Positions 956 to 20,083 of a stretch of 34,492 bases of DNA are shown here, one piece after another (position 1 is the first letter of the stretch; each line of letters opens with the position of its first letter). This DNA is from a virus. Below the pieces are notes generated by a model. The model was not told the DNA's origin, did not search any database, and worked only from the letters and a program-made list of their open reading frames with translations. The translations under genes were made by a program, and so were the position numbers. The stretch is taken from positions 1 through 34,492 of the IMG/VR virus record IMGVR_UViG_3300027747_000545, one strand, 5' to 3'.

Positions 956-3900
956 GCGAAGACCGTGTTGTCAGCGATCTGGTGTGGACTCCTGAGCGAG
1001 GCAGCGAGCAGCCAGAAGTTCGAGGCATCTCATGGGAGAACTTCCTTCTCTCTGATGACAAGTATCTGGGCAAGTGGAAGACCGACTCCGGCATCAGGAT
1101 CACGCCCGAGACCGCACTCCAGTCAACGGTCGTCCTCTCGTGCTGCCGCATCCTCGCGGAGACCGTCTGCGGGTTGCCTCTCCATGTCTATCGCCGCCGA
1201 CCAGACGGCGGAGACGAGATCGCGAAAGAGATTCCGCTCTACAAGATTCTGACATTCAGGCCAAACGATTGGCAGACGAAGCCGGAATTCTTTGAGCAGA
1301 TCGTAATGAACCTTACCCTCTGGGGTAATTCCTACACACGCATTCGCAGCGGACAGTACGGAAGTGTTTCCTGCCTCGACAATCTCCATCCGAGCCGGAT
1401 GGACGTTGAGAGACTTGAGAATGGCCGACTGCGGTACAGCTACACCGATCCAGAGACCGGCCGACTTGAACGGTACACGCAAGACCAGATCATGCACATC
1501 CGGTGGACTCCGGAGCAGGACGGCATCAAGGGCATGGTCCCGGTCGAGATCGCACGAGAGGCGATCGGCTTAGCTCGTGCATGCGAGCAGCACGCGGCTC
1601 GATTCTGGGCCAACTCTGCCCGACCGGGCGTTGTCCTTCAGACCGAAGGCACACTCAACGCGGAAGCAGCCGAGCGTCTCCGCGACAACTGGGAGAGACT
1701 CCATCGAGGCAGCGAGCGAGCATTCAAAACCGCAGTCCTCACGGGCGGCATGAAGGCCGTCGAGCTTGGCATGACGAATGAGTCCAGCCAGTTCGTCGCC
1801 AGCCGCGACTTTCAGACCGCTGAAATCTGCCGCGTGTACCGGATCGCGCAGCATTTGATTCAGGGCACTCCGGGCGGCGACCTCGAAGTGCAAGGTCAAG
1901 AGTTCGTTACCTACACGCTGATGCCTTGGCTCACTCGAATTGAGTCTGCGATCAGCCGATCGCTGATCTACAACGACGACGAATACTACGCGAAGTTCGA
2001 CGTGCGTGGCCTGCTCCGCGCCAATTCGCAACAGCGGGCGAGCTACTACTCGACGATGACCAGCCTCGGCATCATGACGATCAATGACTGCCGACGAGCC
2101 GAAGGCCTGAAGCCTCTCGGCGAGATCGGCGACCACCACTTCGTCGCGATGAATATGCAGACCTTGGAGGACGCCACGAAGCCCAAGCCAGAGGCACCTC
2201 CGGGCGGGATGCCGGGTGGCGGTGGCGACGGACCGCCTCCTCCGACTCCGGGTGGACCGCCAAGTCTCCCCGAGGTGAAGACAGGCAGGGCACCGATTGC
2301 TTCCCCGAAGGGCGAGGCGTCGAAGCCGAAGGAAGAGGAAGCCATCGAGGAAGCGTCAGCCGACTGGGAGGACGCGATCGAGGGGCGGGCTTTCTGCTCC
2401 ACCGGCCCCGGCGGTGGTATTGACAACTCGTGCGGCGCGAAGGTGATGGCTGGCCCGGATAAGGATTCCGGCGGCGGGGCTATCGCAGCAGGCGACCCCA
2501 GCTTGGCTAACTACAAACCCTTCATTTCGGTCGGTGACACCAAGAACTCTTCCTTCGCAATGCCGCCGACTGAAGACGAAGTAAAGTCCGCACTCAACGT
2601 CACTCAGCGAGAGAAGTTTGGAGCCCAGCGAACACTTGAGGCTGGATACCCGATCGACTTGCGAATCGACATCAACGCCTTCAAGAACCACAAGGTCTAT
2701 GCCGTCACAGCCCACGAGCATGAGGGCGGGGCTGGCGTTGGAAAGCCGATCGGCTACGACACACACATTCGCCTGAAAGGCCCGGTCAGCTTCGTCTCGA
2801 ACGAAAACTCCGCAGAGGCAATTGGCAAGGGGCGAACAAAGGGAACTCACTCGACAGTCAAGGGCAACTTTGATCCAAGCAGGGAGATTCCAGAGGACAT
2901 CGATTCGTGGACGCCAGTGGGCTACGACCCGCAAAAGACTGTCTACTACTACGACAAGAGAACCGGCGAGGAGGTTGTTGCCGGGACTGATGCCGTAAGC
3001 GTCGGCAATACTGTCTTCACGAGAAACCCGAGGTATGGAAACGCTAGGGAGCCGAGCAAGCCGCCACGAAACGCTCACACAGACTATCGTTCGATCGACG
3101 AACGTGGCTTCTGCCCAACCGGCGAAGGCGGCGGCATTGAGAACACGTGCAGTTCGAGCGATGGCAGTCACGCCAGTCCGGACGGCGACAAGACTACATC
3201 CGGAAGCGGCAGCGGCTCATGCCCTGCACCCTGCCCCACCATCGACGTCACGTCCGACAAGAACAAAGACGGCGTGACTGACGCTGCCCGCGTGGGCGTG
3301 CCAGCGATGGAAGTTCCGCCTCCGCCAAACGTGGGACGCGTTCCGAATCTCACGCCCCACGAGCGGTCTGTCGAGGATGCGTTCATGAAGCACTTCCAGT
3401 CAGACCCAGACGGTGTGTCGTCTCAGTTTCTTAAACTAGTCAAGAGCATGGGCGATCCTCCGACGTTTGGCACAGACGACGCCAAGTGCCTTACTGACGC
3501 ATGGTCGCACCCAGACCCGGACACTCGCGCTCAGAACAGAGCCACACTCAACGTCGCCCTGCACCAGACAGCCAACGCAATCGCGAAGCGTGCATTCGTC
3601 CAGCACCTCGACACGCTCTCGGAGGGCGACGAGATTCTCGTGACTGTCGGCGGCTGCGGTGCTGGCAAGGGCTTTGCCCTCAAGAACAATCCAGACGCAT
3701 TGGAGATGAAATCCAAGGCAAAGGCCGTGTGGGATTCCGCTGGCGACCAGAACGCCACCGAGAACCCGTGGATTCTGAAAGAGGCCGAGGATCGTGGTCT
3801 GAGAGTGAATTATGTCTACGTTCACGCCGACCCAAAGGTGCAGTGGGCCGACCCCGATCGTGGTGTTGTGAAGCGAGCATCCGATCCGAAGGACGGCCGA

Positions 3901-4182
3901 ATGGTAGACGCGATGGTGTTTGCTGATAGCTACGCAATCGGCGCGAAGAACCACCACGCGTTTCATCAGGCAAATAAAGACAACCCGTCTGCGTCTTTCG
4001 TTTTCCTCGACAACACTGGAAAGCCCAAGCAGATTCCGGGCGTGCCAAAAGAAGCTCTGGAACTCGACTCTGCCAGTCTGGCTGAGTTCGCTCAGTCAAA
4101 AGTCAAAGAGTCATCTGCACCAGAACGTGTGAAGTCAGGTGCGTTGGTGGGCACTCGCATCTGGAAACGAAAGGGCAAGTGA
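952..4182 (+). CDS. HK97-family portal protein fused to a polyvalent-type C-terminal extension
   Basis: Residues 1-410 form a normal HK97-type portal, the dodecameric DNA channel and motor docking ring. Signatures include ETALQSTVVLSCCRILAETV, the NLTLWGNSYTRI segment, IMHIRWTPEQDGIKGMVPV and FQTAEICRVYRIAQHLIQ. A Pro/Gly linker (413-440) leads into about 630 extra residues that ordinary portals of roughly 400-450 aa lack. The extension holds Cys motif 1 (479-495), an unnamed module (about 517-700), Cys motif 2 (718-734) and a zeta/kinase-like P-loop module (about 800-1040). Start ATG 952 overlaps the terminase stop. Portal C-termini normally face the capsid interior, so the extension probably projects into the lumen. 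The portal call is certain; the role of the extension is inferred. Confidence 0.9.
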   Translation: MSEDRVVSDLVWTPERGSEQPEVRGISWENFLLSDDKYLGKWKTDSGIRITPETALQSTVVLSCCRILAETVCGLPLHVYRRRPDGGDEIAKEIPLYKILTFRPNDWQTKPEFFEQIVMNLTLWGNSYTRIRSGQYGSVSCLDNLHPSRMDVERLENGRLRYSYTDPETGRLERYTQDQIMHIRWTPEQDGIKGMVPVEIAREAIGLARACEQHAARFWANSARPGVVLQTEGTLNAEAAERLRDNWERLHRGSERAFKTAVLTGGMKAVELGMTNESSQFVASRDFQTAEICRVYRIAQHLIQGTPGGDLEVQGQEFVTYTLMPWLTRIESAISRSLIYNDDEYYAKFDVRGLLRANSQQRASYYSTMTSLGIMTINDCRRAEGLKPLGEIGDHHFVAMNMQTLEDATKPKPEAPPGGMPGGGGDGPPPPTPGGPPSLPEVKTGRAPIASPKGEASKPKEEEAIEEASADWEDAIEGRAFCSTGPGGGIDNSCGAKVMAGPDKDSGGGAIAAGDPSLANYKPFISVGDTKNSSFAMPPTEDEVKSALNVTQREKFGAQRTLEAGYPIDLRIDINAFKNHKVYAVTAHEHEGGAGVGKPIGYDTHIRLKGPVSFVSNENSAEAIGKGRTKGTHSTVKGNFDPSREIPEDIDSWTPVGYDPQKTVYYYDKRTGEEVVAGTDAVSVGNTVFTRNPRYGNAREPSKPPRNAHTDYRSIDERGFCPTGEGGGIENTCSSSDGSHASPDGDKTTSGSGSGSCPAPCPTIDVTSDKNKDGVTDAARVGVPAMEVPPPPNVGRVPNLTPHERSVEDAFMKHFQSDPDGVSSQFLKLVKSMGDPPTFGTDDAKCLTDAWSHPDPDTRAQNRATLNVALHQTANAIAKRAFVQHLDTLSEGDEILVTVGGCGAGKGFALKNNPDALEMKSKAKAVWDSAGDQNATENPWILKEAEDRGLRVNYVYVHADPKVQWADPDRGVVKRASDPKDGRMVDAMVFADSYAIGAKNHHAFHQANKDNPSASFVFLDNTGKPKQIPGVPKEALELDSASLAEFAQSKVKESSAPERVKSGALVGTRIWKRKGK
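2386..2436 (+). repeat. Cys linker motif 1, T type (C-x11-C)
   Basis: Portal residues 479-495, RAFCSTGPGGGIDNSCG. It is preceded by the acidic helix DWEDAIEG and followed by a PDKDSGGG flexible stretch. It separates the portal linker from the first extension module. Confidence 0.9.
2500..3051 (+). other. Unnamed module in portal extension
   Basis: Portal residues about 517-700. A mixed alpha/beta stretch with DTHIRLKGPVSFVSNE, a polar loop, then DIDSWTPVGYDP, TVYYYDKRTGEEVV and VGNTVFTRNPRYG. The tail of this pattern (a Tyr-rich strand, 'TGEEVV', 'GNTVF') looks like a conserved phage structural or polyvalent module, but I cannot name the family. Boundaries are set by Cys motifs 1 and 2. Confidence 0.5.
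3103..3153 (+). repeat. Cys linker motif 2, T type
   Basis: Portal residues 718-734, RGFCPTGEGGGIENTCS, preceded by YRSIDE. A Ser/Gly-rich spacer containing a second small Cys cluster (CPAPCP) follows, then the P-loop module. Confidence 0.9.
3349..4080 (+). other. Zeta-toxin/kinase-like P-loop module at the portal C-terminus
   Basis: Portal residues about 800-1043. After a helical lead-in (LTPHERSVEDAF), strand ILVTV runs into the P-loop GGCGAGKG (residues 900-907), fitting G-x4-G-K but with Gly907 where Ser/Thr is usual. Further conserved pieces are VYVHADPKVQW, the Arg-containing VVKRASDPKDGRMVD, FADSYAIGAKNHHAF and a final strand SFVFLDNTG. This order matches phage zeta-toxin-like kinases, which in the classical toxins phosphorylate UDP-sugars. 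The substrate here is unknown. Confidence 0.65.
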
Positions 4183-7100
4183 TGGCTGACGATCTTTCCA
4201 AGTGGTGGGACGAGGACGCAGAGCGTCTCAACAAGATGGCGATCGCTGCACGCAAGATGGCGGTCAAGCTGCCTACTGAGAGGGAAGATCGCTGGGAGGA
4301 CGCTATTGAGGAAGAGCGTGCTTGGTGTCCGACTGGCCCCGGTGGTGGACTCGACAACTCGTGCGGTGGTGGAACCGCAGCGGTCGTCCGCGAAGTCTTG
4401 AAGAGCATCGAGAAGACTGGCGGCTTCTCTGTTCACCCAGTCTCAGCCAAGAGTCCGACTACGGGCTTCATGTGTGCAACAGTCCCGCACGCCGAGAAGA
4501 TTTTCAAGAGTAGCGAGGAGATCACTGAGCCTGCGATTCAGTCTTACATCGACCAGCACAAGGACTTCCTTTCTGAGAACCCTAAGCTACACTTGGGTGG
4601 CTGGATTGACCCCGACACGGAAAAGGTTTACCTCGATCTCTCTGAGCAATTCGAGGACGAGGCGTCTGCGGTCGCGGCAGGGGTCAAGCACAATCAACTT
4701 GCGATCTGGGACGTCAAAAACAAGCGAGAAGTACGGATAAGGAGAGACGAAAATGGACAACGAAGCCAAGCAGCCGATTCGGTTCGACTTCCCGCCGGGG
4801 GCGGGAGCCAAGGAGATCGCAGAAGCTCTGAACAAAGCTCGCGAGGAGTTGCGGGCAAGGAAGAAAGCCGCGCTTTCTGCGCAACAGGCGAAGGCGGAGG
4901 GATCGACAACTCCTGTGGAGTAGAAGGAGACGAAGCTCCGTCGGACTCATTCGGCAACGTAATTGACGCGCCAACGCGTTCACCGTCGTCCACGATGGGC
5001 GGCGGCGGACGATCATCGTGGAAGAAGAGCGACGATCTGTCTTTCTACGACTCCAATAGGCTGAAGAGTGATCCTCCGTCTCCCTCTCTCGCCGAAGTGA
5101 ACACCGTAACCATCCTTAGCGGCAGGACGCTGTCCGCATCGCTAAAGGAAGTTGGCGTCACTCTCGACCAAGCAGCCAAGGTGTGCTGCAATCTGTCGCC
5201 TGAGTCGAACGTCACGATGGCTCACGGCACACTCAAGGAGATAACCAGCCGCCTCGACGACCTCTCTGGGCCGACTGATCCTGAATCCAGCGTGACTGTT
5301 ATTTCGTCACAGTCATTCGGTGGCGTCGATAAGGCTATTGGGACTGCTGCGACACTCACTCGCACAGACGACGATGAGTTGCTTCTGAATTACGCGATGT
5401 TTAGCGTCGCTCCGGAATCGCAGAAAGAAAACCCGATCGCCATCGCTCGCGCGATGTACTCTGGGGTTGTGAAGAGTATCACCGAAGCCGAGAAGGCTGG
5501 CGTTGAAGAAGTGGGAATGTATGCGGCTGGCGACAGTGACTCGAACGACGAGTTCAAGGGATACCGCATCTGGCCTCGACTTGGATTCGATGGCATCATT
5601 CCGCGAGACAAGATCACTCCCACCTACTCTCTCCGGCTTGGCTTTTTCGAGCCATATGGAAGCAATATCCCCAACGAGATTCTTTCCGATCGCGCGAGGC
5701 AAGAGAAGAGCGAAGGTGTCTTGACGATTCAGGCTCTTTACGACACGAAGGAAGGCCAGCGTTGGTGGGAGGAGAACGGCGGTGCTATGCCGATGTTTCT
5801 CCGAGTTGGAGACAGTGAAGACCCCGGCTGGCAGCGTTTCAAGAAAATCAGCAGCAAGGTCTCCGACCGCGACATCATCGACGTCATTGACGCCGAGTGG
5901 AGATCGTTTCGAGGGGAGGCCGAGGAGCGTGGCTTCTGCCCGACCGGCGAGGGCGGAGGCATCGACAACTCGTGCGGCGGATTGTCTGGCGTCAAGATGG
6001 CACCAGATCGAGACATGGGGTCGTCTTTTTCTTCAGGCGGCAGCGTATCGCAGGGTCCAGCCAGCGTCAGGGTAGAGTCTGAAGAAAAGCTACAGAAGTC
6101 GATCTCCGCGATTGGCGCATCGAGCGTCGAGGATGTGATCTCTCTTGGGGGAGGGAACCTTCGAGGCGCGCAAGTGGCGATTGCCGCTGACCCTGAGCCA
6201 GATGGCACAGGCTCGACATACGTGCAAATTACCACGGCGTCACCAGTTGAGAGGGATAACTCGTCCGCAGAGACCTTCAATACTCAGGTCTCTATTTCTG
6301 TTGGACCCAATGGAAAAGAAGTTGGATTCGAGAGCCTTGGTCTGAGCGGTCACGGGAGCATGACGAAGGCCAACGAGCAAAAGGTCATGTCGCTTGTGTC
6401 CGAGAAGGTCATTGAATCGATTGCGACGGCAGAGAGACTGGACTTTGACAGGATCACCACGTTCGCTATCGGAGATTCCAAGAATGGCTACAAGGGGTAT
6501 CGTCTCTGGCCGCAGTTCGGCTTTGACGGCGACATTCCGAGGGACATCGTAAAAAAGATTCCGCCGGAACTAATCCTCGCATCGAAGGGGATCACTCCTC
6601 CGCCCCCCGGCTCGACGAGCATTCCGCACGACCTTGTCGTGAAGAGTCTTGCCTCACGATATCGCGACATGACGATCCAAGAGTTGCTGAAGACTCGCGA
6701 AGGCGATCGCTGGTGGGACAATAACGGCGACGACATCGTCCTGAAGCTCGACCTGAGAGACAAGTCGAGCCTTGGCTACAAGCGATGGAAGGAAATGGAG
6801 GCAAACCTTCCTCGCCTGCGAGAGAGAAACCAGACGAGAGAGTTCTTCGATGCGTTCGTGGAGGAGCGGGACGCCGACTGTGGCAGAACCCCAGACGGGA
6901 AGTTCGGCAACGACAACAAGTGCCAAGAAGAAGGCGAAGGCGGCGCGACCGCGACCGCAGGCGGCGGCGCGTTGGCAAAGGCAAGAAATGTCGACGTGAT
7001 GATCGGCGGAGGAAAGACTACCGCAGTCATTGACGAAGAAGCGAGAACTCGCGCTTTAGAAGACACCGCCTCGCACCCCCGGCCTGAAGGCTTGTCGTCT

Positions 7101-9155
7101 GGATCAACAGCAGACTTGTGGGATAGGACGTTCGTCGAGAGGAAAGGCTCCACAAAAACCAAAATCACATCCACTGATCCTGTGTTCCCACAGGACAGGC
7201 TCGCGATGAATGGAACGTATGTAGCTCACGAGTCTGTCGGCCAGTACCTGTCCATGCGACACGAGGAGGATCGCGCCGCTGCCGGTGGCGTTGGTCCCGG
7301 AGCAATAATCGACACGACCCAAGTGTTGACTCACTCGCAGTTCACTTATGTGTCTGATGCATTGAGCGACGACGTCATGCACGCATATGAGTCTGGAAGG
7401 TTTGATCCGGGCTTCTACAGCAAAGACCTTGAGGATGCCATGACGAAGATGGCATCGCGTCACCCGGAGCTTGCCACCGACGAGAACGGTCGATTTGTAT
7501 TCACGATGCTGACCGCGATCCTTAGCAATGGGCAAGACCCTACTGCAAACATCGCCGACTCAGACGGCGTCTATGCGATGTACAAAGAGCATGGCACGTG
7601 TATGCCGGAGGGTTCTATTGCTGGCACACGCTCAGCCGCAGCCAAGACGTCGCTCGCACTTTTCCAGTCGATGATTGACTCGTTCGGCGTGGAGCGAACC
7701 AAGAACCTTCTGTCTGGATACACAACTGCCGAGAACGTAAACAAGACGTTCGCCAGTCTGTCCGAGAAGTCGTCAAACGCTGAGTGGCGTGAAAGGACGG
7801 ACTCTAAGCCTTGGATGATCGATCACTACAAGGCCAGAGACAAAAAAACCGGCGAGGCACTTGCGACAACTAACTTGGTCAAGACGGACTCAAGTGGCGA
7901 GTTCAAGGACGAGATCGTTCCGATGGCATCGATCTTCGGACCGAAGATCGGGTCGTTCTTCGCGAACCTCAACGGCAGGCACGACTTCCTGACGATGGAC
8001 AGGTGGCTGATGCGTTCGGTCGGTAGAACCACTGGCGAGCTACTGACTCGATCCGCCCCGCAGGGGGCTAAGTCGAGAGCCGAAGACGCAATCAAAGCAC
8101 TCGACGTCGATAAGTGGAAGCCGAGCGTTTATATGTTTGGCATCGACAGGCAGTTCGGCGTGACGAAGCAAGACCTCATTCGCTCTCTGAAGATTCAGCA
8201 GAGGACAGGAGTGATCGAGGAGAACGGAGCAGCGTACCTGTGGGCTACTGCGGCAGAGCGTTCCCATAAGAACACAACGAAACCCAACGGCGGCGGATAC
8301 GGAAGAGACCCTGATGCGGACAAGCACGCCTGCCACGTAGCCGGTAATGCTCTTTTCAAGTCTCTGATTCACGAACAGCAAGACCCGCGAGGCGCACAGG
8401 CGAGGCGTTCTATTCGGGAAGTGTTTCGTTCTGTCGTGAAAGACATCGAAGCGAAGTACCCTGACCGCAAAGGCAAGGTAGACGTCGACGAAGTGCAGGC
8501 GATTCTATGGCAGTACGAGAAGAATCTCTGGAAGCACCTCGGAGCGAAGGTGCAGATCGACGAGAACTCGCTGTACTCGAAGGCGGCTGACGATCTCCTG
8601 ACTGGAAAGACCAAGGAGCGTAAGTTTAAGCCAGAGTCTCGTGCCGCATTGCTTGAAGCGTTGCGAGATATTGGTGACTCAAACGACGACTGGCAGTTTC
8701 AGGCCGAGCAGGAAAGCTGGGATTCGGATATCGGCGAGTCTGGGATCGACTTCAATCAGTTGTTTCTTGAGTTGGAGCGTATTGTTTCGGCAGAAAAAGC
8801 ACCCTCCGCACTTGAATCCGCAAAGGACACCGTCATCGATCTGCGTTCGGTCGGTCTTTCGACGGTCGAGATGCCGAAAGCAGGCCTCGATGGTCTCCAT
8901 GTGATGGGTTTCGACGCCGAAATCCCGCCAGACCTCATTGAAAAGCTTCCGGAGTCGCTCTCGCACTGCAAAACGCTGCTCGATTTGCACGTTTCGAGCG
9001 AGGGACAGGAGTGGTGGAAGGAAAACGGACGTGACATCGACGTCGCTATCGACCTCGACGGCGTTCAGGGACAGATTTTCGACAGTTTCGCCGCAGGGAA
9101 ACGGTGGGAAGAAATCATCGAAGAAGGGATTCTCGACGACTATGGCAACTCCTGA
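4182..9155 (+). CDS. Large modular (polyvalent-type) protein with four Cys motifs
   Basis: 1657 aa from ATG 4182, which overlaps the portal stop as TGATG; GTG 4179 is also possible. Order: acidic N-terminal helix; motif 3 (res 46-62); small module (66-186); a low-complexity stretch that overlies a nested reading frame; motif 4 (230-246); GFD module copy 1 (about 305-581); motif 5 (583-599); GFD copy 2 (about 630-894); variant motif 6 (896-914); a large unnamed module (about 930-1486); a truncated GFD copy 4 at the C-terminus. No known head-assembly family covers it, though it sits where a MuF-like or scaffold gene often lies. Best reading: a capsid-packaged multi-domain protein. Its size and internal repeats suggest growth by module duplication. 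Confidence 0.75.
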   Translation: MADDLSKWWDEDAERLNKMAIAARKMAVKLPTEREDRWEDAIEEERAWCPTGPGGGLDNSCGGGTAAVVREVLKSIEKTGGFSVHPVSAKSPTTGFMCATVPHAEKIFKSSEEITEPAIQSYIDQHKDFLSENPKLHLGGWIDPDTEKVYLDLSEQFEDEASAVAAGVKHNQLAIWDVKNKREVRIRRDENGQRSQAADSVRLPAGGGSQGDRRSSEQSSRGVAGKEESRAFCATGEGGGIDNSCGVEGDEAPSDSFGNVIDAPTRSPSSTMGGGGRSSWKKSDDLSFYDSNRLKSDPPSPSLAEVNTVTILSGRTLSASLKEVGVTLDQAAKVCCNLSPESNVTMAHGTLKEITSRLDDLSGPTDPESSVTVISSQSFGGVDKAIGTAATLTRTDDDELLLNYAMFSVAPESQKENPIAIARAMYSGVVKSITEAEKAGVEEVGMYAAGDSDSNDEFKGYRIWPRLGFDGIIPRDKITPTYSLRLGFFEPYGSNIPNEILSDRARQEKSEGVLTIQALYDTKEGQRWWEENGGAMPMFLRVGDSEDPGWQRFKKISSKVSDRDIIDVIDAEWRSFRGEAEERGFCPTGEGGGIDNSCGGLSGVKMAPDRDMGSSFSSGGSVSQGPASVRVESEEKLQKSISAIGASSVEDVISLGGGNLRGAQVAIAADPEPDGTGSTYVQITTASPVERDNSSAETFNTQVSISVGPNGKEVGFESLGLSGHGSMTKANEQKVMSLVSEKVIESIATAERLDFDRITTFAIGDSKNGYKGYRLWPQFGFDGDIPRDIVKKIPPELILASKGITPPPPGSTSIPHDLVVKSLASRYRDMTIQELLKTREGDRWWDNNGDDIVLKLDLRDKSSLGYKRWKEMEANLPRLRERNQTREFFDAFVEERDADCGRTPDGKFGNDNKCQEEGEGGATATAGGGALAKARNVDVMIGGGKTTAVIDEEARTRALEDTASHPRPEGLSSGSTADLWDRTFVERKGSTKTKITSTDPVFPQDRLAMNGTYVAHESVGQYLSMRHEEDRAAAGGVGPGAIIDTTQVLTHSQFTYVSDALSDDVMHAYESGRFDPGFYSKDLEDAMTKMASRHPELATDENGRFVFTMLTAILSNGQDPTANIADSDGVYAMYKEHGTCMPEGSIAGTRSAAAKTSLALFQSMIDSFGVERTKNLLSGYTTAENVNKTFASLSEKSSNAEWRERTDSKPWMIDHYKARDKKTGEALATTNLVKTDSSGEFKDEIVPMASIFGPKIGSFFANLNGRHDFLTMDRWLMRSVGRTTGELLTRSAPQGAKSRAEDAIKALDVDKWKPSVYMFGIDRQFGVTKQDLIRSLKIQQRTGVIEENGAAYLWATAAERSHKNTTKPNGGGYGRDPDADKHACHVAGNALFKSLIHEQQDPRGAQARRSIREVFRSVVKDIEAKYPDRKGKVDVDEVQAILWQYEKNLWKHLGAKVQIDENSLYSKAADDLLTGKTKERKFKPESRAALLEALRDIGDSNDDWQFQAEQESWDSDIGESGIDFNQLFLELERIVSAEKAPSALESAKDTVIDLRSVGLSTVEMPKAGLDGLHVMGFDAEIPPDLIEKLPESLSHCKTLLDLHVSSEGQEWWKENGRDIDVAIDLDGVQGQIFDSFAAGKRWEEIIEEGILDDYGNS
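4317..4367 (+). repeat. Cys linker motif 3, T type (Phe replaced by Trp)
   Basis: Residues 46-62 of the 1657-aa protein, RAWCPTGPGGGLDNSCG, preceded by DRWEDAIEEE, almost the same helix as before motif 1. It is the only copy with Trp before the first Cys. Confidence 0.9.
4377..4737 (+). other. Small conserved-looking module (YIDQHKDF...NQLAIWD)
   Basis: Residues about 66-186. Contains GGFSVHPVSAKSP, IQSYIDQHKDFL, LGGWIDPDTEKVYLDLS and ASAVAAGVKHNQLAIWD. This is a compact alpha/beta domain ending in a strand that calls to mind small phage proteins with the same 'NQLAI(W/F)D' ending. I cannot name a function. In frame 0 it is followed by Arg/Gln/Ser-rich sequence rather than another fold. Confidence 0.45.
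4753..4923 (+). CDS. Nested 56-aa ORF in an alternative frame inside the modular protein
   Basis: ATG 4753 lies 8 nt after a strong Shine-Dalgarno AAGGAG (4739-4744), and the frame closes at TAG 4921-4923. The product starts MDNEAKQPIRFDFPPG and continues as a charged helix (KEIAEALNKAREEL, RARKKAALSAQQAKAE), much more protein-like than the overlapping frame-0 residues (QRSQAADSV, GSQGDRRSSEQSSRG). The same frame upstream is closed by TAA 4738-4740. The ORF reads through Cys motif 4 in another frame. It may be an expressed small gene or the remnant of a formerly separate gene overprinted when two neighbours fused. No function is recognised. Confidence 0.55.
   Translation: MDNEAKQPIRFDFPPGAGAKEIAEALNKAREELRARKKAALSAQQAKAEGSTTPVE
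4869..4919 (+). repeat. Cys linker motif 4, T type
   Basis: Residues 230-246, RAFCATGEGGGIDNSCG. Unlike other copies, the residues before it do not form a clear helix, because this stretch overlaps the nested ORF. It borders GFD module copy 1. Confidence 0.85.
5095..5925 (+). other. GFD module, copy 1
   Basis: Residues about 305-581. Key pieces: ARAMYSGVVKSITEAEKAG, GYRIWPRLGFDGIIPRD, then LYDTKEGQRWWEENGG and a beta strand. The order (long helix, acidic turn, GY-x-WP-x-x-GFD, L-x-x-T-x-x-G-x-x-WW-x-x-NG) recurs in copies 2-4. The helix plus 'GY..WP.LGFD' arrangement is loosely GNAT-like, but I cannot confirm a fold. Confidence 0.6.
5928..5978 (+). repeat. Cys linker motif 5, T type
   Basis: Residues 583-599, RGFCPTGEGGGIDNSCG, preceded by AEWRSFRGEAEE and followed by a PDRD/Ser-Gly spacer. 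It lies between GFD copies 1 and 2. Confidence 0.9.
6070..6865 (+). other. GFD module, copy 2
   Basis: Residues about 630-894. Contains VSEKVIESIATAERLDFD, GYRLWPQFGFDGDIPRD and LLKTREGDRWWDNNGDD followed by LKLDL. Best match to copy 1, with a short Pro-rich insertion (TPPPPGST) after the GFD segment. The tandem position with copy 1 suggests duplication. Confidence 0.65.
6867..6923 (+). repeat. Cys linker motif 6, long variant (C-x13-C)
   Basis: Residues 896-914, RDADCGRTPDGKFGNDNKC, preceded by the helix REFFDAFVEE. It differs from the main type by D-G-K-F in place of the Gly run and two extra residues between the cysteines. Confidence 0.8.
6970..8640 (+). other. Large unnamed module (about 550 aa)
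   Basis: Residues about 930-1486. Mostly helical. Conspicuous pieces: WDRTFVERKG, FVFTMLTAILSNGQDP, IFGPKIGSFFANLNG followed by DFLTMDRWLMRSVGR, and AYLWATAAERSHKN. It resembles conserved large phage proteins with a GPK-x-x-x-F...T-x-D-x-W-x-x-R core (a helix-hairpin-helix glycosylase-like arrangement is conceivable), but I cannot assign a family or reaction. Confidence 0.45.
8870..9110 (+). other. GFD module, copy 4 (truncated)
   Basis: The C-terminal ~80 residues of the 1657-aa protein keep only the end of the module: GLHVMGFDAEIPPDLIEKLP, LLDLHVSSEGQEWWKENG and VAIDLDG. The N-terminal half seen in copies 1-3 is missing or not recognisable. No Cys motif precedes it. Confidence 0.6.
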
Positions 9156-11481: not shown

Positions 11482-14400
11482 TTGCGGCACGGTACGCGTC
11501 GCTTATTGCGTTTGCTCAGGCTCGTGCCTTCTGCCCCAACGGAGAAGGCAACGGCGTCACGAACACGTGCGGCTCGAAGGAACTGTCAGCACCAGACAAA
11601 GACTCCGGAGGTGGCTCTGCTTCGTTCCCCGAAACTTGGGACACAGACTTGTCGAGGGTTGTCCGAAAAGGTCCGCTGCCTCCGGGCCTTGAGAAACTTA
11701 GCTCGTTTAAACTGGGACCAAACGCGACCCCAAGGAAGGTTGTGAAGCTGTCTCAGGAGATGGGCATCAAGAGTCCTGAGCAACTCGTCACGATCGGTGC
11801 CTGCAACGTCGCTGGCGCAGATGTGACAATTAATCTACTTTCTAGCAACGCACTCACCGCCAGAGCAGACGTCCCTGTCGGAGGCGGGCACGTCGAAATC
11901 GACACGACCATGCGCAAGGGCGAAGACGGTCCAACGATCGACTACGGACTTCTCGACCTCGACGACACCGCGAGAACGCAAGCCGCGAATGACGAGAGCT
12001 TTAATAGGCGTGTTGCAGGCCAGATGTATGAAGTGATGCTTTCGTCGATGGAGGCTGCTGAAAAGGCTGGCTTCGTCAGTGCCAAAACTGTTGCCGAGGG
12101 CTATGGATCGGGATACACCAACGGCAAGCAGACGAAGTTTCAGGGCTACAGGCTGTGGGGACGTTTCGGATTCGACGCAAAGATTCCACCACGTTGGTTC
12201 GCGAGCGTGAAAGACAAGGGCGTTGACGTTCACTCTGCACTCAATCCCCTCGACAGAGATCAGTTGAACAATGAGGGCAGCGTTCGGCTTCAGCAACTTC
12301 TTGCCACAAAGCAGGGCGAACAAATTTGGAAAAAGTGGGGAATCGCTTTGGGGCTGACCTTTGATTTCACAAACAAAGCCAGCGACGGCTACCTGAGATA
12401 CAGGAAGATGCTTGCCGCTTCAAAACGTGCCACTGTCAAGCGAGACTTCTTCGAGTACGTTGCCGGTCTGGAGATGCGTGAAGACCCGGACTTGTGGAAT
12501 GGGTTTGCCGAGGAGCGTGCCTTCTGCCCTAACGGCGATGGTGGCGGAGTCACAAACACGTGCGGCCCCGACCAAACCGCGAAGTCATTCCCTGAAGGCT
12601 CGAAGAATCTCAGGGACGCCGTCGATTCGGTGGCCCCTGCCCCGGAGCAAGTCTGGGATCGTTCGAGAGGCTTGGCTGAGACTCCTGCCCCTAAGCAGAT
12701 GGACGACATCGCCAACGAGCAGACCAGCCACTCTGGGTCGCCGCTCACGCCAGAGGCAGAGGCGTCCTACGGATCGCTCGTCGATGAGATCGGCAGGCAG
12801 TACGAGGCTCTGACCGCAGCCGGTCTAAAAGCGCGGGCGTGGCGTGGAGAGGGCGAGCCATACGGCGACCCTCCGGGAAGCACGAAGCCAAACTCGAACA
12901 AGATGAGAGAAGAGGTCGCCAAGACTGGCGAGTTCTCGTTCTTTATGACCGACAAAGGGTTCGGCACGGGAGACGCCACGCCAAACCACCCCATGCTTCG
13001 CGAGACGAAGTACAAGACCGCTGACGGTGAGCCTATGATCGCCAACGACCTGTTCCGGGTCGTCCACGACATGGTCGCGCACGTGCGAGGCGGCTACTCG
13101 TTCTCGACGAACGGCGAATACAACGGGATGTTGACGCACGCGTCTACACTTCCCGAAGCAGCTTGGCCTGCACTGTTCGCAGAGACTTTCGGCCAGAACG
13201 CCGTCTACGAGAAGACGAAGAACTACGCCCCCCAGAACGCTTACGCCTCGAAGGTCGGCCCGGAGATCATTCGCAGCGAGTTGAAGAAGCGGACGAAGAG
13301 CAGCCGCGCATCGAAGAGTGACAGCGACGAGCCGCTGGGCTACCAGCACATCAAGTCGAGGCCTGATCTGCTCAAGTCTCTGGTCGAGAAGAGAGCCTTC
13401 TGCGCCACCGGGGAAGGAAACGGCATCGACAATTCTTGCGGCGCGAAGGCAACGTCCGCGCCAGACAAGAACAGTGGTGGCGGTAGCGGCAGCGGCGACT
13501 ACGATCCCGGCCATTTCGACATCGGACCGGACCCGAATGGTCTGACCGAGAAAGACTTGATGTACTCGCCTACCGTGAAGTGGACTCAGGATCACAAGTC
13601 TCTCGTTCGTGATGCGGTCCAGTCATGGAAGGGATCGCCTACGGACATGACTCTCCACGTCATGTCGGAACTCAAGGGGGACGGCACCCCCGGCTCCGGC
13701 TCTGGCAAGATCATGCGGGCACAGGCCACGGCGTTGCTCACTGAAGTTCTCGACAACGGCGAGCCAGCACCGACGCTCTACCGTGGCGCGAGCATCCCGC
13801 CGGAGCAAGACCCGTCGCCGCTCTTGGGATGGACTTCAAAGAAGTCGGTCGCCGTGGCGTTCGCCAAGAAAAACAACGGCGAGGTCTACACGCTTGAAGG
13901 CGCGACTGGGCTTGATACGAGCAAGATCAAGGCACACGGCATGGGTGAGGCCGAGTGGATCGTCGCACACAAGGTTCCGGACGGATATCGCGGAGCTAAG
14001 GCCGAAGTTGCCTCCGTTCCAAAGCCCAAATGGATGGGCGACGTTGACGCGAGTGGCACTACGAATCACGGTACATGGTTTCTTGAGAAGAACACTAAGC
14101 AACAACCGACGCCTTGGCGTGGCGACGACGAGGCCACAACTCACGTTGTGAGTCTGGTCGACGGCGGCGGGAAAGTAAAAGCGTTCGCACACGCTGACCT
14201 GTCCGACGAACGCACGTCCCTCTACATGAATTACTCGGAAGTCGCAGGGCCGCACAGGGGTCAGGGAGTTTACAAGTCGCTCCTCGATTCTTTGTCCGAG
14301 AAGTTTCGAGTTGTGTCAGACGAAGAACACAACGTGGCCCCTGCGGCCAAGAAGGCTTACGAGTCATTGGGTGCAAGGCTTGACCGCTACGGACACTACG

Positions 14401-16883
14401 TTCTCGATAAAAAGAAGAAGCATGAAGACCGTGCCTTCTGCCCCAACGGCGACGGTGGCGGCGTCACAAACACGTGCGGCAAGGGCATCGGCATAAACGA
14501 CGCGGAGCAGGACTTCACGGGACAGATTCTCTCCGGCGAGAAGACTATCGAGACTCGCGTGCCAAACTCTCTCAAGCCATACATCGGCAAGACTGTTGGA
14601 ATCGTCCGCACCGGCAAGGGCAAAGCCACTCTCGTGGGAGTGATGAAAATCGGCGAGCCGAAGTTCTATAAGACTCGCAAGGAGTTCGATGCCGACTACG
14701 ACAAGCACAGGGTGGGCAAAGACTCGCCGCACTACATCGGACCAGAGGGGAAGTACGGATACCCTCTCTCTGAGGTGAAGCCGGTCAAGCCTCGAACGCT
14801 CGACACGAAGGGGCACGTGGCTCGCGTGATTGCTAAGTCGGTTAAGACTCGTGAATTGACGATCGAGTTTGATCTGGGCGGCGAGTCGCCGGAGGAGCCG
14901 AATACAGAGTCTCGCGGCGACGCCCCCGCCCCGAAGAAAGACAAGATCAAAGGCAGCGACGTCAACGACGAAGGCTCCGCTAAGAACAAGTCTGGAGACA
15001 TCTCTCTGAACGAGAGCATCATCGCCTCGCTGAAGTCGAAGGCCGAGGAACACAACGCCGCGATGCGAAAAGCCAAGAAGCCGTCGTGGACTCACGTTAG
15101 CCTGCCCGCGTTGAAGGCAGTCTATCGTCGAGGTGCTGGAGCTTTCTCGACGAGCCATCGTCCGGGCATGACTCGCGACCGATGGGCACTTGCGAGGGTG
15201 AATGCGTTCCTGACTCTTGCCCGGAGAGGCAGGCCAGAGAACGCGAAGTACACGACTGACAACGACCTTCTTCACTCCAGCCATCCGAAGCACAGCAAAG
15301 AGTCCCGCTCCGACGACTGCGGTCGCGACGACGACGGTCGTTTCTCCTCCGGCAACAAATGCGGCGGCTCTGTCGATATGCCGAAGGAAGACCCTCGTGG
15401 CCGGATGCGGTACGACAACGGCGTTCAGACGGACGCCGCCCGGAAGCTGTACCAAATGGGATCGTCCGAGAAGAAGCTCAAGGGTCTGGTTGACGCGATG
15501 GGCGGCGATCCAAAACACACTCGCGTCGATATCAATCCGCCCAGCCTGAACATCTCTGTTGCCGACAGTGATGGAAATAAACTCTTCCACATCGATTTTG
15601 AGAACGGAAGGGCGAGGCTCTATCCAGCCAAAGACCTGACCACGGGCGAGACCGCCAATATCAAGAAAGCGGCTGGCGAAGCGTTTGGCGGGCGTCAGTC
15701 TGACAACACAATCAAAGTCTTCAGCAAGGCAGAAGACATGAAGAAGTGGGAGTCTGAGAACGCTGCCAAGATCAAGAAGTGGGAAGACAAGTACAGGTTC
15801 TCAACGCTTCTCCCGCCGCACCAGAGGCCGAAGAAGTGGGAGCGTTCGATTGACGCAAAGCACGCGTCTCTGCTTGCGTTTGCCCAGTCGCGTGGCTTCT
15901 GTCCTAACGGCGAGGGCAACGGAGTCACGAACACGTGTTCGTCGAAGGATGGTGGTTCAGAACTTGCCAGAATCCCGAAGTCTGCCGGTCCGTCTCTTGA
16001 TCCATACGATGCACCAATCTCTGAGGAGGCTGGCACGGACGTTCACTCCAAGCTAGTCCTTTCAAACACGCCTCGGCTTCTGGAGATACCCGGAGCAATT
16101 CACAACAACTTTATTCACGGCAATTCTCGTGCAAATGTCGGCTTCATGCACGAAACACTCGAAAGTGTCGGATACCCAACGGCGACCTGTTCTCAGATCG
16201 CCAAGGCGGCATCGCCGATGGCGAGCGACGGAGACTACGACCGGGCGAGGGCCGCGATCCTGATGGGACAATTTGTCGCCTCGGCGCATGATCATCCAGC
16301 CATCGCGGCGTCTCCCATGAAGCTCGCCACGGACGCGGTGGTGAAAAAGGAGATTGGAAAGGAGGTTGGCTCAAGAGTTATCGACATTCCGGCCTACTTC
16401 ATGCCGCAGGACGGCATAATTCGTCTGAATTCGGCAGGAGCAATTCAGTTGGCTGATCGTGCGGCGTCTATTGCCGCAGGAGACTCGGATAAACACACGG
16501 CAGGCTGGTTCAGCACCAAGTCTCTGTCGCACTGCCTAGTCCACGAAGAGGGGCATCGCATCCATTTTGATGCACTCCGGAGTGATCTGGGCTTGTATAC
16601 TGGGACAGATCGCCCACTGTCGAAGATGGATATGTTCGCGCTCGGTCGGACCCTAGAGGTTGCCGAGGCAAAGGCGATTGTCCTTGCTCACTCGAACCCA
16701 GATGTTTTTAAGGCAATCGAGAAATTGTCTGGATATGCTTGCACTTCTCCGAGAGAAGCCGTCGCTGAATACTACGCCAAGGCGATCCTGACGGGGAAAA
16801 GAGACAAGCACCTCGATAAGTTTATGGATGCCATCGGTTTTCCGGTCGAGCGGCTTGGGCCACAAAAGAAAGCAAAGAAATGA
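11478..16883 (+). CDS. 1801-aa polyvalent protein: GFD module, HD/GQN module, ART, GNAT, ASCH, zincin
   Basis: ATG 11478 overlaps the previous stop (ATGA). The N-terminus is itself a linker unit: helix AARYASLIAFAQA then motif 9 (16-32). Then GFD copy 3 (about 72-334), motif 10 (347-363), an HDxxxH/GQN module (about 365-620), motif 11 (639-655), an ADP-ribosyltransferase (about 690-840), a GNAT domain (about 880-978), motif 12 (985-1001), ASCH (about 1005-1120), a basic helical module (about 1178-1274), variant motif 13 (1277-1295), a module shared with the next gene, motif 14 (1472-1488), and a zincin with HEEGH at 1689-1693. This domain set matches phage polyvalent proteins thought to be delivered with DNA to modify host targets. 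Delivery and substrates are inferred. Confidence 0.82.
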   Translation: MIAARYASLIAFAQARAFCPNGEGNGVTNTCGSKELSAPDKDSGGGSASFPETWDTDLSRVVRKGPLPPGLEKLSSFKLGPNATPRKVVKLSQEMGIKSPEQLVTIGACNVAGADVTINLLSSNALTARADVPVGGGHVEIDTTMRKGEDGPTIDYGLLDLDDTARTQAANDESFNRRVAGQMYEVMLSSMEAAEKAGFVSAKTVAEGYGSGYTNGKQTKFQGYRLWGRFGFDAKIPPRWFASVKDKGVDVHSALNPLDRDQLNNEGSVRLQQLLATKQGEQIWKKWGIALGLTFDFTNKASDGYLRYRKMLAASKRATVKRDFFEYVAGLEMREDPDLWNGFAEERAFCPNGDGGGVTNTCGPDQTAKSFPEGSKNLRDAVDSVAPAPEQVWDRSRGLAETPAPKQMDDIANEQTSHSGSPLTPEAEASYGSLVDEIGRQYEALTAAGLKARAWRGEGEPYGDPPGSTKPNSNKMREEVAKTGEFSFFMTDKGFGTGDATPNHPMLRETKYKTADGEPMIANDLFRVVHDMVAHVRGGYSFSTNGEYNGMLTHASTLPEAAWPALFAETFGQNAVYEKTKNYAPQNAYASKVGPEIIRSELKKRTKSSRASKSDSDEPLGYQHIKSRPDLLKSLVEKRAFCATGEGNGIDNSCGAKATSAPDKNSGGGSGSGDYDPGHFDIGPDPNGLTEKDLMYSPTVKWTQDHKSLVRDAVQSWKGSPTDMTLHVMSELKGDGTPGSGSGKIMRAQATALLTEVLDNGEPAPTLYRGASIPPEQDPSPLLGWTSKKSVAVAFAKKNNGEVYTLEGATGLDTSKIKAHGMGEAEWIVAHKVPDGYRGAKAEVASVPKPKWMGDVDASGTTNHGTWFLEKNTKQQPTPWRGDDEATTHVVSLVDGGGKVKAFAHADLSDERTSLYMNYSEVAGPHRGQGVYKSLLDSLSEKFRVVSDEEHNVAPAAKKAYESLGARLDRYGHYVLDKKKKHEDRAFCPNGDGGGVTNTCGKGIGINDAEQDFTGQILSGEKTIETRVPNSLKPYIGKTVGIVRTGKGKATLVGVMKIGEPKFYKTRKEFDADYDKHRVGKDSPHYIGPEGKYGYPLSEVKPVKPRTLDTKGHVARVIAKSVKTRELTIEFDLGGESPEEPNTESRGDAPAPKKDKIKGSDVNDEGSAKNKSGDISLNESIIASLKSKAEEHNAAMRKAKKPSWTHVSLPALKAVYRRGAGAFSTSHRPGMTRDRWALARVNAFLTLARRGRPENAKYTTDNDLLHSSHPKHSKESRSDDCGRDDDGRFSSGNKCGGSVDMPKEDPRGRMRYDNGVQTDAARKLYQMGSSEKKLKGLVDAMGGDPKHTRVDINPPSLNISVADSDGNKLFHIDFENGRARLYPAKDLTTGETANIKKAAGEAFGGRQSDNTIKVFSKAEDMKKWESENAAKIKKWEDKYRFSTLLPPHQRPKKWERSIDAKHASLLAFAQSRGFCPNGEGNGVTNTCSSKDGGSELARIPKSAGPSLDPYDAPISEEAGTDVHSKLVLSNTPRLLEIPGAIHNNFIHGNSRANVGFMHETLESVGYPTATCSQIAKAASPMASDGDYDRARAAILMGQFVASAHDHPAIAASPMKLATDAVVKKEIGKEVGSRVIDIPAYFMPQDGIIRLNSAGAIQLADRAASIAAGDSDKHTAGWFSTKSLSHCLVHEEGHRIHFDALRSDLGLYTGTDRPLSKMDMFALGRTLEVAEAKAIVLAHSNPDVFKAIEKLSGYACTSPREAVAEYYAKAILTGKRDKHLDKFMDAIGFPVERLGPQKKAKK
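11523..11573 (+). repeat. Cys linker motif 9, N type
   Basis: Residues 16-32 of the 1801-aa protein, RAFCPNGEGNGVTNTCG. It lies directly after the N-terminal helix, so the protein begins with a complete helix-plus-motif unit. SAPDKDSGGG follows. Confidence 0.9.
11690..12480 (+). other. GFD module, copy 3
   Basis: Residues about 72-334. Contains YEVMLSSMEAAEKAGF, GYRLWGRFGFDAKIPP and LLATKQGEQIWKKWG then LTFDF. It has diverged from copies 1 and 2 (the WW pair is IW and NG is WG), so this duplication is probably older. Confidence 0.6.
12516..12566 (+). repeat. Cys linker motif 10, N type
   Basis: Residues 347-363, RAFCPNGDGGGVTNTCG, preceded by DPDLWNGFAEE. It lies between GFD copy 3 and the HDxxxH module. 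Confidence 0.9.
12570..13340 (+). other. Module with HDxxxH ... GE...H ... ETFGQN signature
   Basis: Residues about 365-620. Polar, potentially metal-binding residues are clustered: H530-D531-x3-H535 in FRVVHDMVAHVRGGYSF, E547 and H554 in GEYNGMLTHAS, then E569, Q573 and N574 in ETFGQN. I recall similar HD...GE...H...ETrGQN patterns in uncharacterised phage and plasmid proteins. The arrangement suggests an active site, but no reaction can be assigned. Confidence 0.5.
13392..13442 (+). repeat. Cys linker motif 11, T type inside an otherwise N-type protein
   Basis: Residues 639-655, RAFCATGEGNGIDNSCG, preceded by PDLLKSLVEK and followed by SAPDKNSGGGSGSG. It introduces the ADP-ribosyltransferase. 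Confidence 0.9.
13545..14000 (+). other. ADP-ribosyltransferase (R-S-E type) domain
   Basis: Residues about 690-840 of the 1801-aa protein. The three classical elements are present in order: Arg769 in PTLYRGASIP; T786-S787 in LLGWTSKKSVAVAFA, the S-T-S strand with Trp at the first position; and E824-A-E826 in GMGEAEWIV, the ExE catalytic loop. The ExE form is typical of arginine-directed mono-ADP-ribosyltransferases that modify protein targets using NAD. Phage versions can be packaged in the virion (for example T4 Alt). The target here is unknown. Confidence 0.82.
14110..14415 (+). other. GNAT-type acetyltransferase domain
   Basis: Residues about 880-978. It has a beta strand VKAFAHADL, strand LYMNYSEV, the acetyl-CoA-binding turn HRGQGVYKSLLDSL (R927-G-Q-G930) and the typical late element AAKKAYESLGAR before a final strand YVLDK. 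It follows the ART domain directly, with no Cys motif between, so ART and GNAT may form one functional bead. Confidence 0.72.
14430..14480 (+). repeat. Cys linker motif 12, N type
   Basis: Residues 985-1001, RAFCPNGDGGGVTNTCG, identical in protein sequence to motif 10. It separates GNAT from ASCH. Confidence 0.9.
14490..14835 (+). other. ASCH-like domain
   Basis: Residues about 1005-1120. It begins with FTGQILSGEKTIETRVP, the usual ASCH start in which the protein binds an RNA-like ligand near an 'ILSGKKTIE.R' strand. IGKTVGIVRTGKGKATLVG and a YPLSEVKPV segment follow. ASCH domains are associated with RNA binding or cleavage and with modified nucleoside metabolism. Confidence 0.72.
15010..15300 (+). 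other. Basic helical module (VYRRGAGAFSTSHRPGM type)
   Basis: Residues about 1178-1274: LPALKAVYRRGAGAFSTSHR, PGMTRDRWALARVNAFLTL and YTTDNDLL. I recall this short conserved unit as widespread at the ends of phage head-gene proteins. Its basic character suggests nucleic-acid contact, but the function is unknown. Confidence 0.5.
15306..15362 (+). repeat. Cys linker motif 13, long variant (C-x13-C)
   Basis: Residues 1277-1295, RSDDCGRDDDGRFSSGNKC. Same D-C-G-x3-D-G-[KR]-F pattern as motifs 6 and 15. Confidence 0.8.
15390..15760 (+). other. Module shared with the following 305-aa protein (copy 1)
   Basis: Residues about 1305-1428: KLYQMGSSEKKLKGLVDAMG, LNISVADSDGNKLFHIDF, RARLYPAKDLTTGE and IKVFSKAEDMKK. 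The same order (helix with 'MG/LG', strand, DG turn, 'DF' strand, 'YP', helix) recurs at about 17320-17630. Confidence 0.6.
15891..15941 (+). repeat. Cys linker motif 14, N type
   Basis: Residues 1472-1488, RGFCPNGEGNGVTNTCS, preceded by the helix AKHASLLAFAQS, closely matching the N-terminal helix of this same protein. Confidence 0.9.
15990..16850 (+). other. Zincin metalloprotease-like domain
   Basis: Residues about 1505-1790, the C-terminal module. Zinc-binding HExxH is present as H1689-E-E-G-H1693 in HCLVHEEGHRIHFDAL, and a plausible third ligand Glu lies in SPREAVAEYYAKAIL about 65 residues later. A long helical region precedes it. It could process host proteins after delivery or cut the modular proteins themselves. 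Family-level assignment only. Confidence 0.7.
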
Positions 16884-17797
16884 TCATTCTTCCGAAGGAC
16901 GGCGAGACGCTTGCGAGCGTTCGCGATCTTCAAGACAAGGTCAACGCTGCTATGGGCCTTCCTCCGTCTCCCCCTTGGGGGTTCGACGGTGATTCGCAGG
17001 GCATGACTCCCGGAGGCGGCACGCCCGGAGGCTCTGGTCTTGCTGCCCGATACGCCAGCCTTCTCGCATTTGCTGAGTCTCGCGACTGCGGGCAGGACAA
17101 GGACGGCAAGTTCTCGAAGGGCAACACGTGTGCATCCGGCCTCGCCGCCGACGTCGCAAAGGGTGCCGCCTCTGGTGCAGTGCTGGGTGCGACGTCTGGA
17201 TTCTTCAAGACGTTCATTCCGCAAGTGGCAGCTACTGGTGCTGCCTACGGTGCCGTCGCTGGCGTTGTCAAAGGAATCTACGACAACAAGATGCGACCGA
17301 CGCGAGTATCTGGACGAATCAAGCAACTAGGTATGACCGACAAGGGAATCGCCAATATAGTCAAGGGGCTCGGCGGTAGCAGCAAGTCAGTGGCGAGCAT
17401 AACAGGCCGATCTCGAATGACTGTGAAAATCAAAGACGAAGACGGAAAGGTGACTCATGTCGTGGATTTCACAAAGAAGTCGCTGACGATCTACCCTTCC
17501 AAGGGAAGCAAGGAGCTTTCCGATTCGGAGCTTCAGGCAGTCAAGAACATCGCCGCGCAGAACGCTCCGAAGCAGACGAGTTTCTCGGTCAAAACAGACT
17601 CGCTCTCATACGCAAAGCGAATCGCCAGAAATGGCTTTGAGGTTGCCGCGAATAAGGCAGGAGTGCTAATCGCGACGGCCAGCATCGCTGGAACGTATCA
17701 AGCCGCTCCGGACGTGGTTCTTGGGATCACTGATCTTTTGATTGACACTCACTTCACAGACTCCTTCTACGGAAAAGCAAATGCAAAGCGGCGATAA
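16880..17797 (+). CDS. 305-aa modular protein with variant Cys motif and hydrophobic segment
   Basis: ATG 16880 overlaps the previous stop (ATGA). N-terminal helix (VRDLQDKVNAAMG), a Pro/Gly linker, then the repeated unit LAARYASLLAFAES plus variant motif 15 (res 68-84). A Gly/Ala-rich hydrophobic stretch follows (about 87-135, AKGAASGAVLGATSGFFKTF and AATGAAYGAVAGVVKG), able to insert in a membrane. A second copy of the module from the previous gene spans about 145-250, and another hydrophobic stretch (GVLIATASIAGTY) lies near the C-terminus. I do not recognise a family. The linker unit and shared module place it with its neighbours as a packaged accessory protein. Confidence 0.7.
   Translation: MIILPKDGETLASVRDLQDKVNAAMGLPPSPPWGFDGDSQGMTPGGGTPGGSGLAARYASLLAFAESRDCGQDKDGKFSKGNTCASGLAADVAKGAASGAVLGATSGFFKTFIPQVAATGAAYGAVAGVVKGIYDNKMRPTRVSGRIKQLGMTDKGIANIVKGLGGSSKSVASITGRSRMTVKIKDEDGKVTHVVDFTKKSLTIYPSKGSKELSDSELQAVKNIAAQNAPKQTSFSVKTDSLSYAKRIARNGFEVAANKAGVLIATASIAGTYQAAPDVVLGITDLLIDTHFTDSFYGKANAKRR
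17081..17131 (+). repeat. Cys linker motif 15, long variant (C-x13-C)
   Basis: Residues 68-84 of the 305-aa protein, RDCGQDKDGKFSKGNTC, after the helix AARYASLLAFAES. It is the last copy in the window. Confidence 0.8.
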
Positions 17798-18057: not shown

Positions 18058-18091
18058 CGCATCGTCAAACCACCAGCAAGGAACACAGAGC

Positions 18092-20053: not shown

Positions 20054-20083
20054 TCCACGGACGGACGACACGGGCAAGGATGC

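Follow-up and report, generated by a model that had tools for sequence, protein, structure and literature searches.

The capsid protein of phage HK97 is cut between K103 and S104, and the prohead proteases of T4, phiKZ, and SPN3US act at sites with Glu at the residue preceding the cut (P1 position). Prohead processing in SPN3US involves 14 sites in nine substrates and includes C-terminal autocleavage of the protease (PMC10052503). Effector packaging has been described for the phage polyvalent proteins (PMC5512222), and the DarB capsid signal of phage P1 directs a large defense-related protein to the capsid and can do so for a heterologous protein as well (PMC9024508). Here, we describe a repeated two-cysteine motif (the joint) in five head-region proteins encoded on a 34,492-nucleotide virus sequence (IMG/VR record IMGVR_UViG_3300027747_000545, positions 1 to 34,492; this whole stretch is called the window). 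Judging from sequence comparisons, the repeats are probably bipartite joints of virion-packaged modular effector arrays, with sites for the S78 prohead protease, at which freed modules would keep an N-terminal Cys-loop tag.

A two-cysteine joint at module borders of head-region proteins

An earlier note on this DNA had reported 12 copies of R-[AG]-[FW]-C-x-[TN]-G-x-G-[GN]-G-[ILV]-x-N-[ST]-C (type 1) and three of a C-x13-C form (type 2) in the five proteins, and each of these was found in frame on the + strand. A degenerate DNA pattern yielded 11 forward matches on the window, with none in reverse and none for a reversed-pattern control. IMG/VR was then sampled by a degenerate DNA scan, which placed the joint in at least 119 stretches; the counts of joint types and modules given below cover the matches listed in these stretches, which are metagenomic fragments of related genomes, and ignore kinship. 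They included at least 222 distinct type-1 and at least 49 type-2 copies. The consensus was E-x-R-[AG]-F-C-[PA]-T-G-x-G-[GN]-G-[IV]-D-N-S-C-[GS] for the 222 type-1 copies and D-C-G-R-x-x-[DG]-G-[KR]-F-x-x-G-N-x-C for the 49 type-2 copies, with an R among the five residues preceding the type-2 loop in 42 of 49. The stretch 3' of the type-1 motif was rich in G, S, P, and D (53%, versus 31% in random segments). The motif is made of two separable elements, E-x-R-[AG] and a two-cysteine loop, a bipartite nature that the earlier note had missed. The short upstream helix proposed there proved to be a tendency only (27.6% of upstream 16-mers contained no P or G, versus 10.4% of random segments); the conserved upstream element is E-x-R instead.

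The paired cysteines are strictly co-conserved, as a Cys2 disulfide loop or a zinc knuckle requires. A cysteine-blind core scan found both in 146 of 146 type-1 core matches and in 29 of 29 type-2 core matches; set aside from the latter were two Cys-less matches that look like an unrelated GRDxxGKFxKGN terminus. When IMG/VR was scanned for Cys-less joint variants in the same cysteine-blind way, the stretches listed were those of the original scan. This invariance makes a disulfide, metal, or tag role of the loop half likely; the earlier note had offered a disulfide or metal clip and a packaging tag as candidates.

The position of the motif at module borders, also noted earlier, was confirmed. 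In the AlphaFold2 (AF2) model of the portal tail, a beta domain and a zeta-like kinase domain are connected by long low-confidence linkers (predicted local distance difference test [pLDDT] of <50, and about 21 to 32 around the motifs), and both joints lie in these linkers. Among portal-tail orthologues, the motif is 85% identical, compared with 35 to 41% in the flanking 20 to 25 residues. The segments between joints form ~130 module communities arranged in many different orders. Behind the portal core alone, 13 different communities occur, and the same communities are preceded by either type-1 or type-2 joints. Sampled modules matched ART-PolyVal, ADPrib_exo_Tox, GNAT, MuF, pentapeptide repeats, and Ntox46 in Pfam (DRAT below its cutoff), and about half had no Pfam match; the module types include ADP-ribosyltransferases, an acetyltransferase, a zeta-like kinase, and likely metalloproteases. 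Joints are internal or near the N terminus, and the sequence after the last joint has a median length of roughly 240 amino acids. In five loci (L007, L012, L061, L085, and L093), free single-module proteins combine a near-identical leader (VIAVFRPTRxGDxDAVLRCVRxLxAVxAxIERR) and a joint with different effector modules.

The earlier note had proposed, as a test, that motif hits should cluster around portal and protease genes, and they did so: copies lay on or beside genes for the portal, the protease, or TerL, forming a compact block in most long contigs. Window-type TerL, portal, S78 protease, and major capsid protein (MCP) genes accompanied the motif in 72 of 98 loci, and the remaining loci had other TerL and portal families. 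Copies in long contigs were on one strand and mostly within one 4- to 12-kb block (e.g., 3.8 to 15.1 kb of 94 kb in G021, 16.5 to 23.6 kb of 96 kb in G022, and 67 to 79 kb of 97 kb in G015), with the exception of two distant copies in G012 (81 kb). Across ~85,000 genomes of cellular species (GTDB), a scan gave two matches, both from Maribacter and in open frames only 45 and 20 amino acids long; both were judged to be chance matches, and a cellular origin of the joint was rejected. A tblastn search of 50,697 cultured phage records with a 35-amino-acid motif unit gave no match; with a query this short and Gly rich, the negative carries little weight. No match was obtained in a PDB sequence search with the helix-motif unit, and no paper matched in a literature search by motif letters. 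The repeated Cys-loop joint is therefore without counterpart in the papers and libraries searched. In a separate case, the Actinomycetia phage DSL-LC01 (L132) has, both close to the start of head-region proteins and within them, Cys-free RRDRxG[KR]FAxMGGG segments, which, from their sequence, are possibly an analogous joint in other phages.

Agreement of the joint residue with the capsid site and the head protease

The E-x-R-[AG] half of the joint resembles a site in the capsid protein. In the capsid proteins of joint-bearing loci (collected down to a phmmer E value of 1e-37), [ED]-x-R-A is found at the border between the delta domain and the N-arm, with R in 23 of 23 and A in 22 of 23 members (V in 1) of a nonredundant set, and this R|A aligns without gaps with K103|S104 of HK97. 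The HK97-fold MCP of the window (positions 18053 to 19546, + strand; Pfam Phage_capsid, 2.6e-30), which has an N-terminal delta (scaffold) domain, carries at this border ESR|A (amino acids 183 to 186; 18599 to 18610), a predicted S78 cleavage site with the same consensus as at the joints; a cut there would leave a capsid protein that begins with ALNEG. Two more ExRA sites, EERA (18506 to 18517) and ELRA (18371 to 18382), lie within its delta domain on the same strand. Overall, ExR[AG] was ~3-fold enriched in delta domains (28 versus 9.6 ± 2.9 in shuffles) and not enriched in capsid domains (7 versus 6.6); neither ExK[AG] nor the reversed pattern was enriched. Most S78 open reading frames (ORFs) stop at ..TL[KR]FLK[DE]RR(A) or a close variant, in the same register where other proteins continue with [AG]-F-C. 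The S78 ORF of the window ends in ..TLKFLKDRRA-stop, i.e., in the residues that precede FC at joints.

The basic residue of the joint co-varies with the head protease. The residue three positions before the first Cys was R in 181 of 181 copies from loci whose TerL, portal, S78, or MCP genes are of the window type, and all 26 non-R copies of that set came from loci without window-type head genes. Contig-wide searches detected S78 in 13 of 17 contigs of an R-type panel (E values of 1e-31 to 1e-41), which includes three short fragments and G012, whose copies are non-R. S78 was detected in 1 of 14 non-R contigs, namely, G001 (which holds L011 and L081), where most joints have K; in several non-R contigs, the portal and TerL belong to other families. 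Where S78 is undetectable, most contigs have no fixed basic residue at the joint, and the Cys loop is kept in the R, K, and S78-less groups alike. These tallies indicate that the basic residue accompanies the S78 system and that the Cys loop is independent of the basic residue.

A scan for K-type joints found four more contigs with S78 (L151, L152, L153, and L157), and the S78 proteases of these and of G001 are divergent. Because this first scan required K, all five contigs were rescanned without that condition, which gave K at 18 of 20 joints and R at 2. K was also present at or one residue from the MCP border in all five (LEQK|SLIDD, AEQK|ALIDD, HEQK|ALIDD, SEK|ASLIDD, and WHK|TIFAD). R joints thus occur with R capsid sites and K joints with K capsid sites, i.e., within a phage, the residue at the joint agrees with the one at the capsid site. 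The contig that holds L011 also has a zeta-like module behind two tandem K-type joints (locus L150, 2129 to 3487), the first of which is a decayed loop, LKAFCPTGPATDNDGSF, without the second Cys.

We propose that the phage's own S78 prohead protease processes these proteins at the E-x-R-[AG] half, as it would process the capsid protein at the border of the delta domain. The protease is encoded in the same genome, and the joint matches the phage's own capsid site, where the cut is placed by alignment with HK97. The portal, the protease, and the adjacent multimodule proteins would be incorporated into the prohead while still fused, and S78 would cut them there after R (K in one lineage), so that effector modules would be freed singly and could be ejected together with the DNA. 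A freed module would start with (A/G)-F-C-x-T-G-x-G-G-G-x-D-N-S-C followed by a flexible Gly/Ser linker. The two-cysteine loop would be a second, protease-independent element, an N-terminal tag or cap that is probably closed by a disulfide or metal and that most likely serves the loading, retention, or delivery of effectors. The role as a protease cleavage site suggested in the earlier note is well, if indirectly, supported for the E-x-R-[AG] half, and the Cys-loop half is a separate element. More tentatively, the infection arsenal of an entire group of uncultured phages might consist of interchangeable effector strings that are anchored on portal and protease and diced in the prohead by the maturation protease, with the leftover loop as a general delivery tag of several unrelated head types.

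The proposal suggests a way in which effector domains that are made as fusions to a portal or head protease could be set free for ejection. In addition, the 20-residue signature would find virion-borne effector modules directly in metagenomes, and the loop on unrelated portal families hints at a delivery tag common to phage lineages.

Several observations weigh against S78 cleavage at the joints. The three delta-domain ExRA sites occur in homologous sequences, so the enrichment counts are inflated. ExRA is also found in the capsid proteins of joint-free phages (ELRA in EPP-1 and ETRA in PDB 9gyi), and its conservation in MCPs is therefore not specific to joint-bearing phages. The 113-residue scaffold reported for phage D3 places the cut two residues past the aligned R, which means that a basic P1 residue is not universal in HK97-like phages. 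Two R joints occur within one K contig, the K-type contigs may be a single lineage with one evolutionary switch, and related genomes are not independent. In L021, L025, and L089, joints have K and S78 was not found in these 7- to 16-kb fragments. Two fixed cysteines are unneeded for a protease site, and AF2 gave no confident fold for the loop, which was unstructured with a pLDDT of about 50 to 60. With this AF2 result, the Cys loop as a fold was rejected. D3 was dropped as support for the R|S register because its published scaffold length disagrees, and a mapped capsid cut was sought in the RcGTA paper and was not there.

Alternative explanations of the joint

The strongest alternative is a packaging tag: whether or not cleavage occurs, the loop would serve cargo as a docking peptide for entry into the prohead, much as the capsid targeting sequence does in T4 and the DarB signal in phage P1. 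It is compatible with S78 processing, and we regard it as a serious but lesser possibility. A single copy behind a short leader in the single-module proteins, copies within the head gene block, and the occurrence of the loop on unrelated portals (e.g., the phrog_21 portal of L106) are what such a tag would lead one to expect. However, portal and protease enter the prohead unaided, several copies per protein exceed the need, and no head protein is evident as common to the S78 and non-S78 lineages.

It is unlikely that the joint is a structural clip only, in which the Cys pair (by disulfide or metal) stiffens or protects the linkers of modules that stay fused and the R is a helix cap beside the loop. 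This explanation accounts for the invariance of the cysteines, for a loop kept in lineages without detected S78, and for differently spaced type-2 loops at equivalent borders, but it leaves unexplained both the C termini ending in ..DRR(A) and the way in which R, K, or neither before [AG]-F-C tracks the head protease and the capsid site.

Still less probable is a DNA-level recombination joint, i.e., a motif maintained as a short homology for module swaps. Modules are heavily reshuffled, and the third codon positions of the window copies agree more often (57%) than expected from codon usage (44 ± 3%). Although wobble codons vary between copies, as reported earlier, protein constraint alone does not cover this excess, and shared DNA descent contributes to the similarity of the copies, or there is a site-specific codon bias. 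However, the longest identical run shared by window copies is only 20 nucleotides, the amino acids (both Cys in particular) are kept across contigs despite differing codons, and DNA homology does not predict a P1 residue that tracks the protease. The recombination-tolerant joint of the earlier note fits as an evolutionary consequence, with the same modules in many orders, and is unneeded for conservation at the protein level.

An intein-like or other self-splicing or self-cleaving element, suggested by a Cys near the start of the motif and N-[ST]-C near its end, is extremely improbable: the motif has 16 residues versus intein domains of more than 100 amino acids with conserved blocks and a terminal His-Asn, no window protein matches an intein family in Pfam, and Pro takes the place of Asn in 5% of copies as well as in many of the K type (DPTC), a replaceability on which intein- or Hedgehog-type autoprocessing was rejected.

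Organization of the window and comparison with described systems

Pfam and PHROGs matches in the window identify a TerL, a portal, an S78 head protease, and an HK97-fold capsid protein, which marks this region as a phage head gene block. The five joint-bearing ORFs, all on the + strand (as are all joints listed here), extend from the portal gene to just upstream of the MCP gene, and adjacent ORFs of the block overlap by 4 to 17 bases. The first (952 to 4182) encodes a portal protein (core at amino acids 60 to 385; Pfam Phage_portal, 2.3e-97) with a C-terminal tail that contains a beta-rich module, a zeta-toxin-like kinase module, and two strict joints in predicted disordered linkers, RAFCSTGPGGGIDNSC (2386 to 2433) and RGFCPTGEGGGIENTC (3103 to 3150). 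The kinase module, with approximate borders at 3349 to 4179, resembles zeta toxin 6eph (Foldseek on the AF2 model, E value of 9e-9; 6eph_B, 9.4e-9, probability of 1.00).

The second ORF (4179 to 9155) encodes a 1,658-amino-acid modular protein, which has modules with relatives in phrog_3170 and in the ctQRb9 polyvalent protein. Its joints are three strict type-1 copies, RAWCPTGPGGGLDNSC (4317 to 4364), RAFCATGEGGGIDNSC (4869 to 4916), and RGFCPTGEGGGIDNSC (5928 to 5975), and the type-2 (C-x13-C) loop CGRTPDGKFGNDNKC (6879 to 6923), with EERDAD just before it. The third (9139 to 11481) is the S78 prohead protease (Pfam Peptidase_S78, 3.7e-33) with C-terminal Gly-rich hydrophobic and other modules and the strict type-1 joints RGFCPTGPGGGIDNSC (10207 to 10254) and RGFCPTGSGGGVDNSC (10945 to 10992). 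The fourth (11478 to 16883) encodes a 1,801-amino-acid modular protein with DUF5824, ADP-ribosyltransferase (ART)-like and GNAT-like modules, and, by inspection, an HExxH metalloprotease-like module. It has five strict type-1 joints, i.e., RAFCPNGEGNGVTNTC near the N terminus (11523 to 11570), RAFCPNGDGGGVTNTC in two copies with the same letters (12516 to 12563 and 14430 to 14477), RAFCATGEGNGIDNSC (13392 to 13439), and RGFCPNGEGNGVTNTC (15891 to 15938), and the type-2 loop CGRDDDGRFSSGNKC (15318 to 15362; C-x13-C), preceded by ESRSDD. The fifth (16880 to 17797) encodes a 305-amino-acid protein composed of a leader helix, the type-2 loop CGQDKDGKFSKGNTC (17087 to 17131; C-x13-C) with AESRD just before it, and a Gly-zipper-like hydrophobic module (weak Pfam Gly-zipper match, below its cutoff).

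Gly-rich hydrophobic (Gly-zipper-like) modules follow a joint in both the protease ORF and the 305-amino-acid protein and recur in related loci; given the weak Pfam support, they are possibly membrane-active ejection parts. A single mycobacteriophage protein (phrog_3170; e.g., in phage Astraea) has adjacent parts that are homologous to residues ~70 to 190 of the 1,658-amino-acid protein and ~420 to 590 of the 1,801-amino-acid protein, which indicates that a known protein is divided between two proteins with joints in the window. Directly 3' of the capsid gene, an ORF (19998 to 20882) has the look, by eye, of a family-2-type glycosyltransferase. Among the downstream, probably tail, genes is a 1,142-amino-acid protein (30336 to 33764) with 42 cysteines, clustered as CCC/CC at its start; upstream of it, a 1,559-amino-acid ORF (24275 to 28954) has zero cysteines.

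The joint can be compared with several described systems. The P1 DarB signal is likened to it by function; the window joint is repeated and internal. Encapsulin cargo-loading peptides, which bind an HK97-fold shell, are usually at the cargo C terminus, unlike joints, which are followed by more sequence. For the internal head (ejection) proteins of T4, phiKZ, and SPN3US, as proposed here, packaged effectors, portal, and protease are processed in the prohead at a short repeated motif, although by another protease family at another motif and mostly at single N-terminal propeptides, not in Cys-loop-joined effector strings. As in HK97-type maturation, the window has an S78 protease beside a portal and an HK97-fold MCP with a delta domain, and a candidate site aligned to K103|S104; unlike in HK97, the site recurs in proteins with fused effector modules, namely, the portal, the protease itself, and free proteins. 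Known polyvalent proteins are without the recurrent Cys-loop joint (the ctQRb9 homologue has 3,210 amino acids and zero cysteines), and neither "cysteine" nor "linker" occurs in the text describing them (Iyer et al. 2017; PMC5512222). Polyvalent proteins are large multidomain proteins near or fused to portal or MuF genes, with ART, kinase, GNAT-like, and peptidase-like modules, and the window modules are homologous to parts of known members. Related loci likewise have several effector-type domains per polypeptide, and the window has a zeta-like kinase on its portal, in the same head-gene neighborhood.

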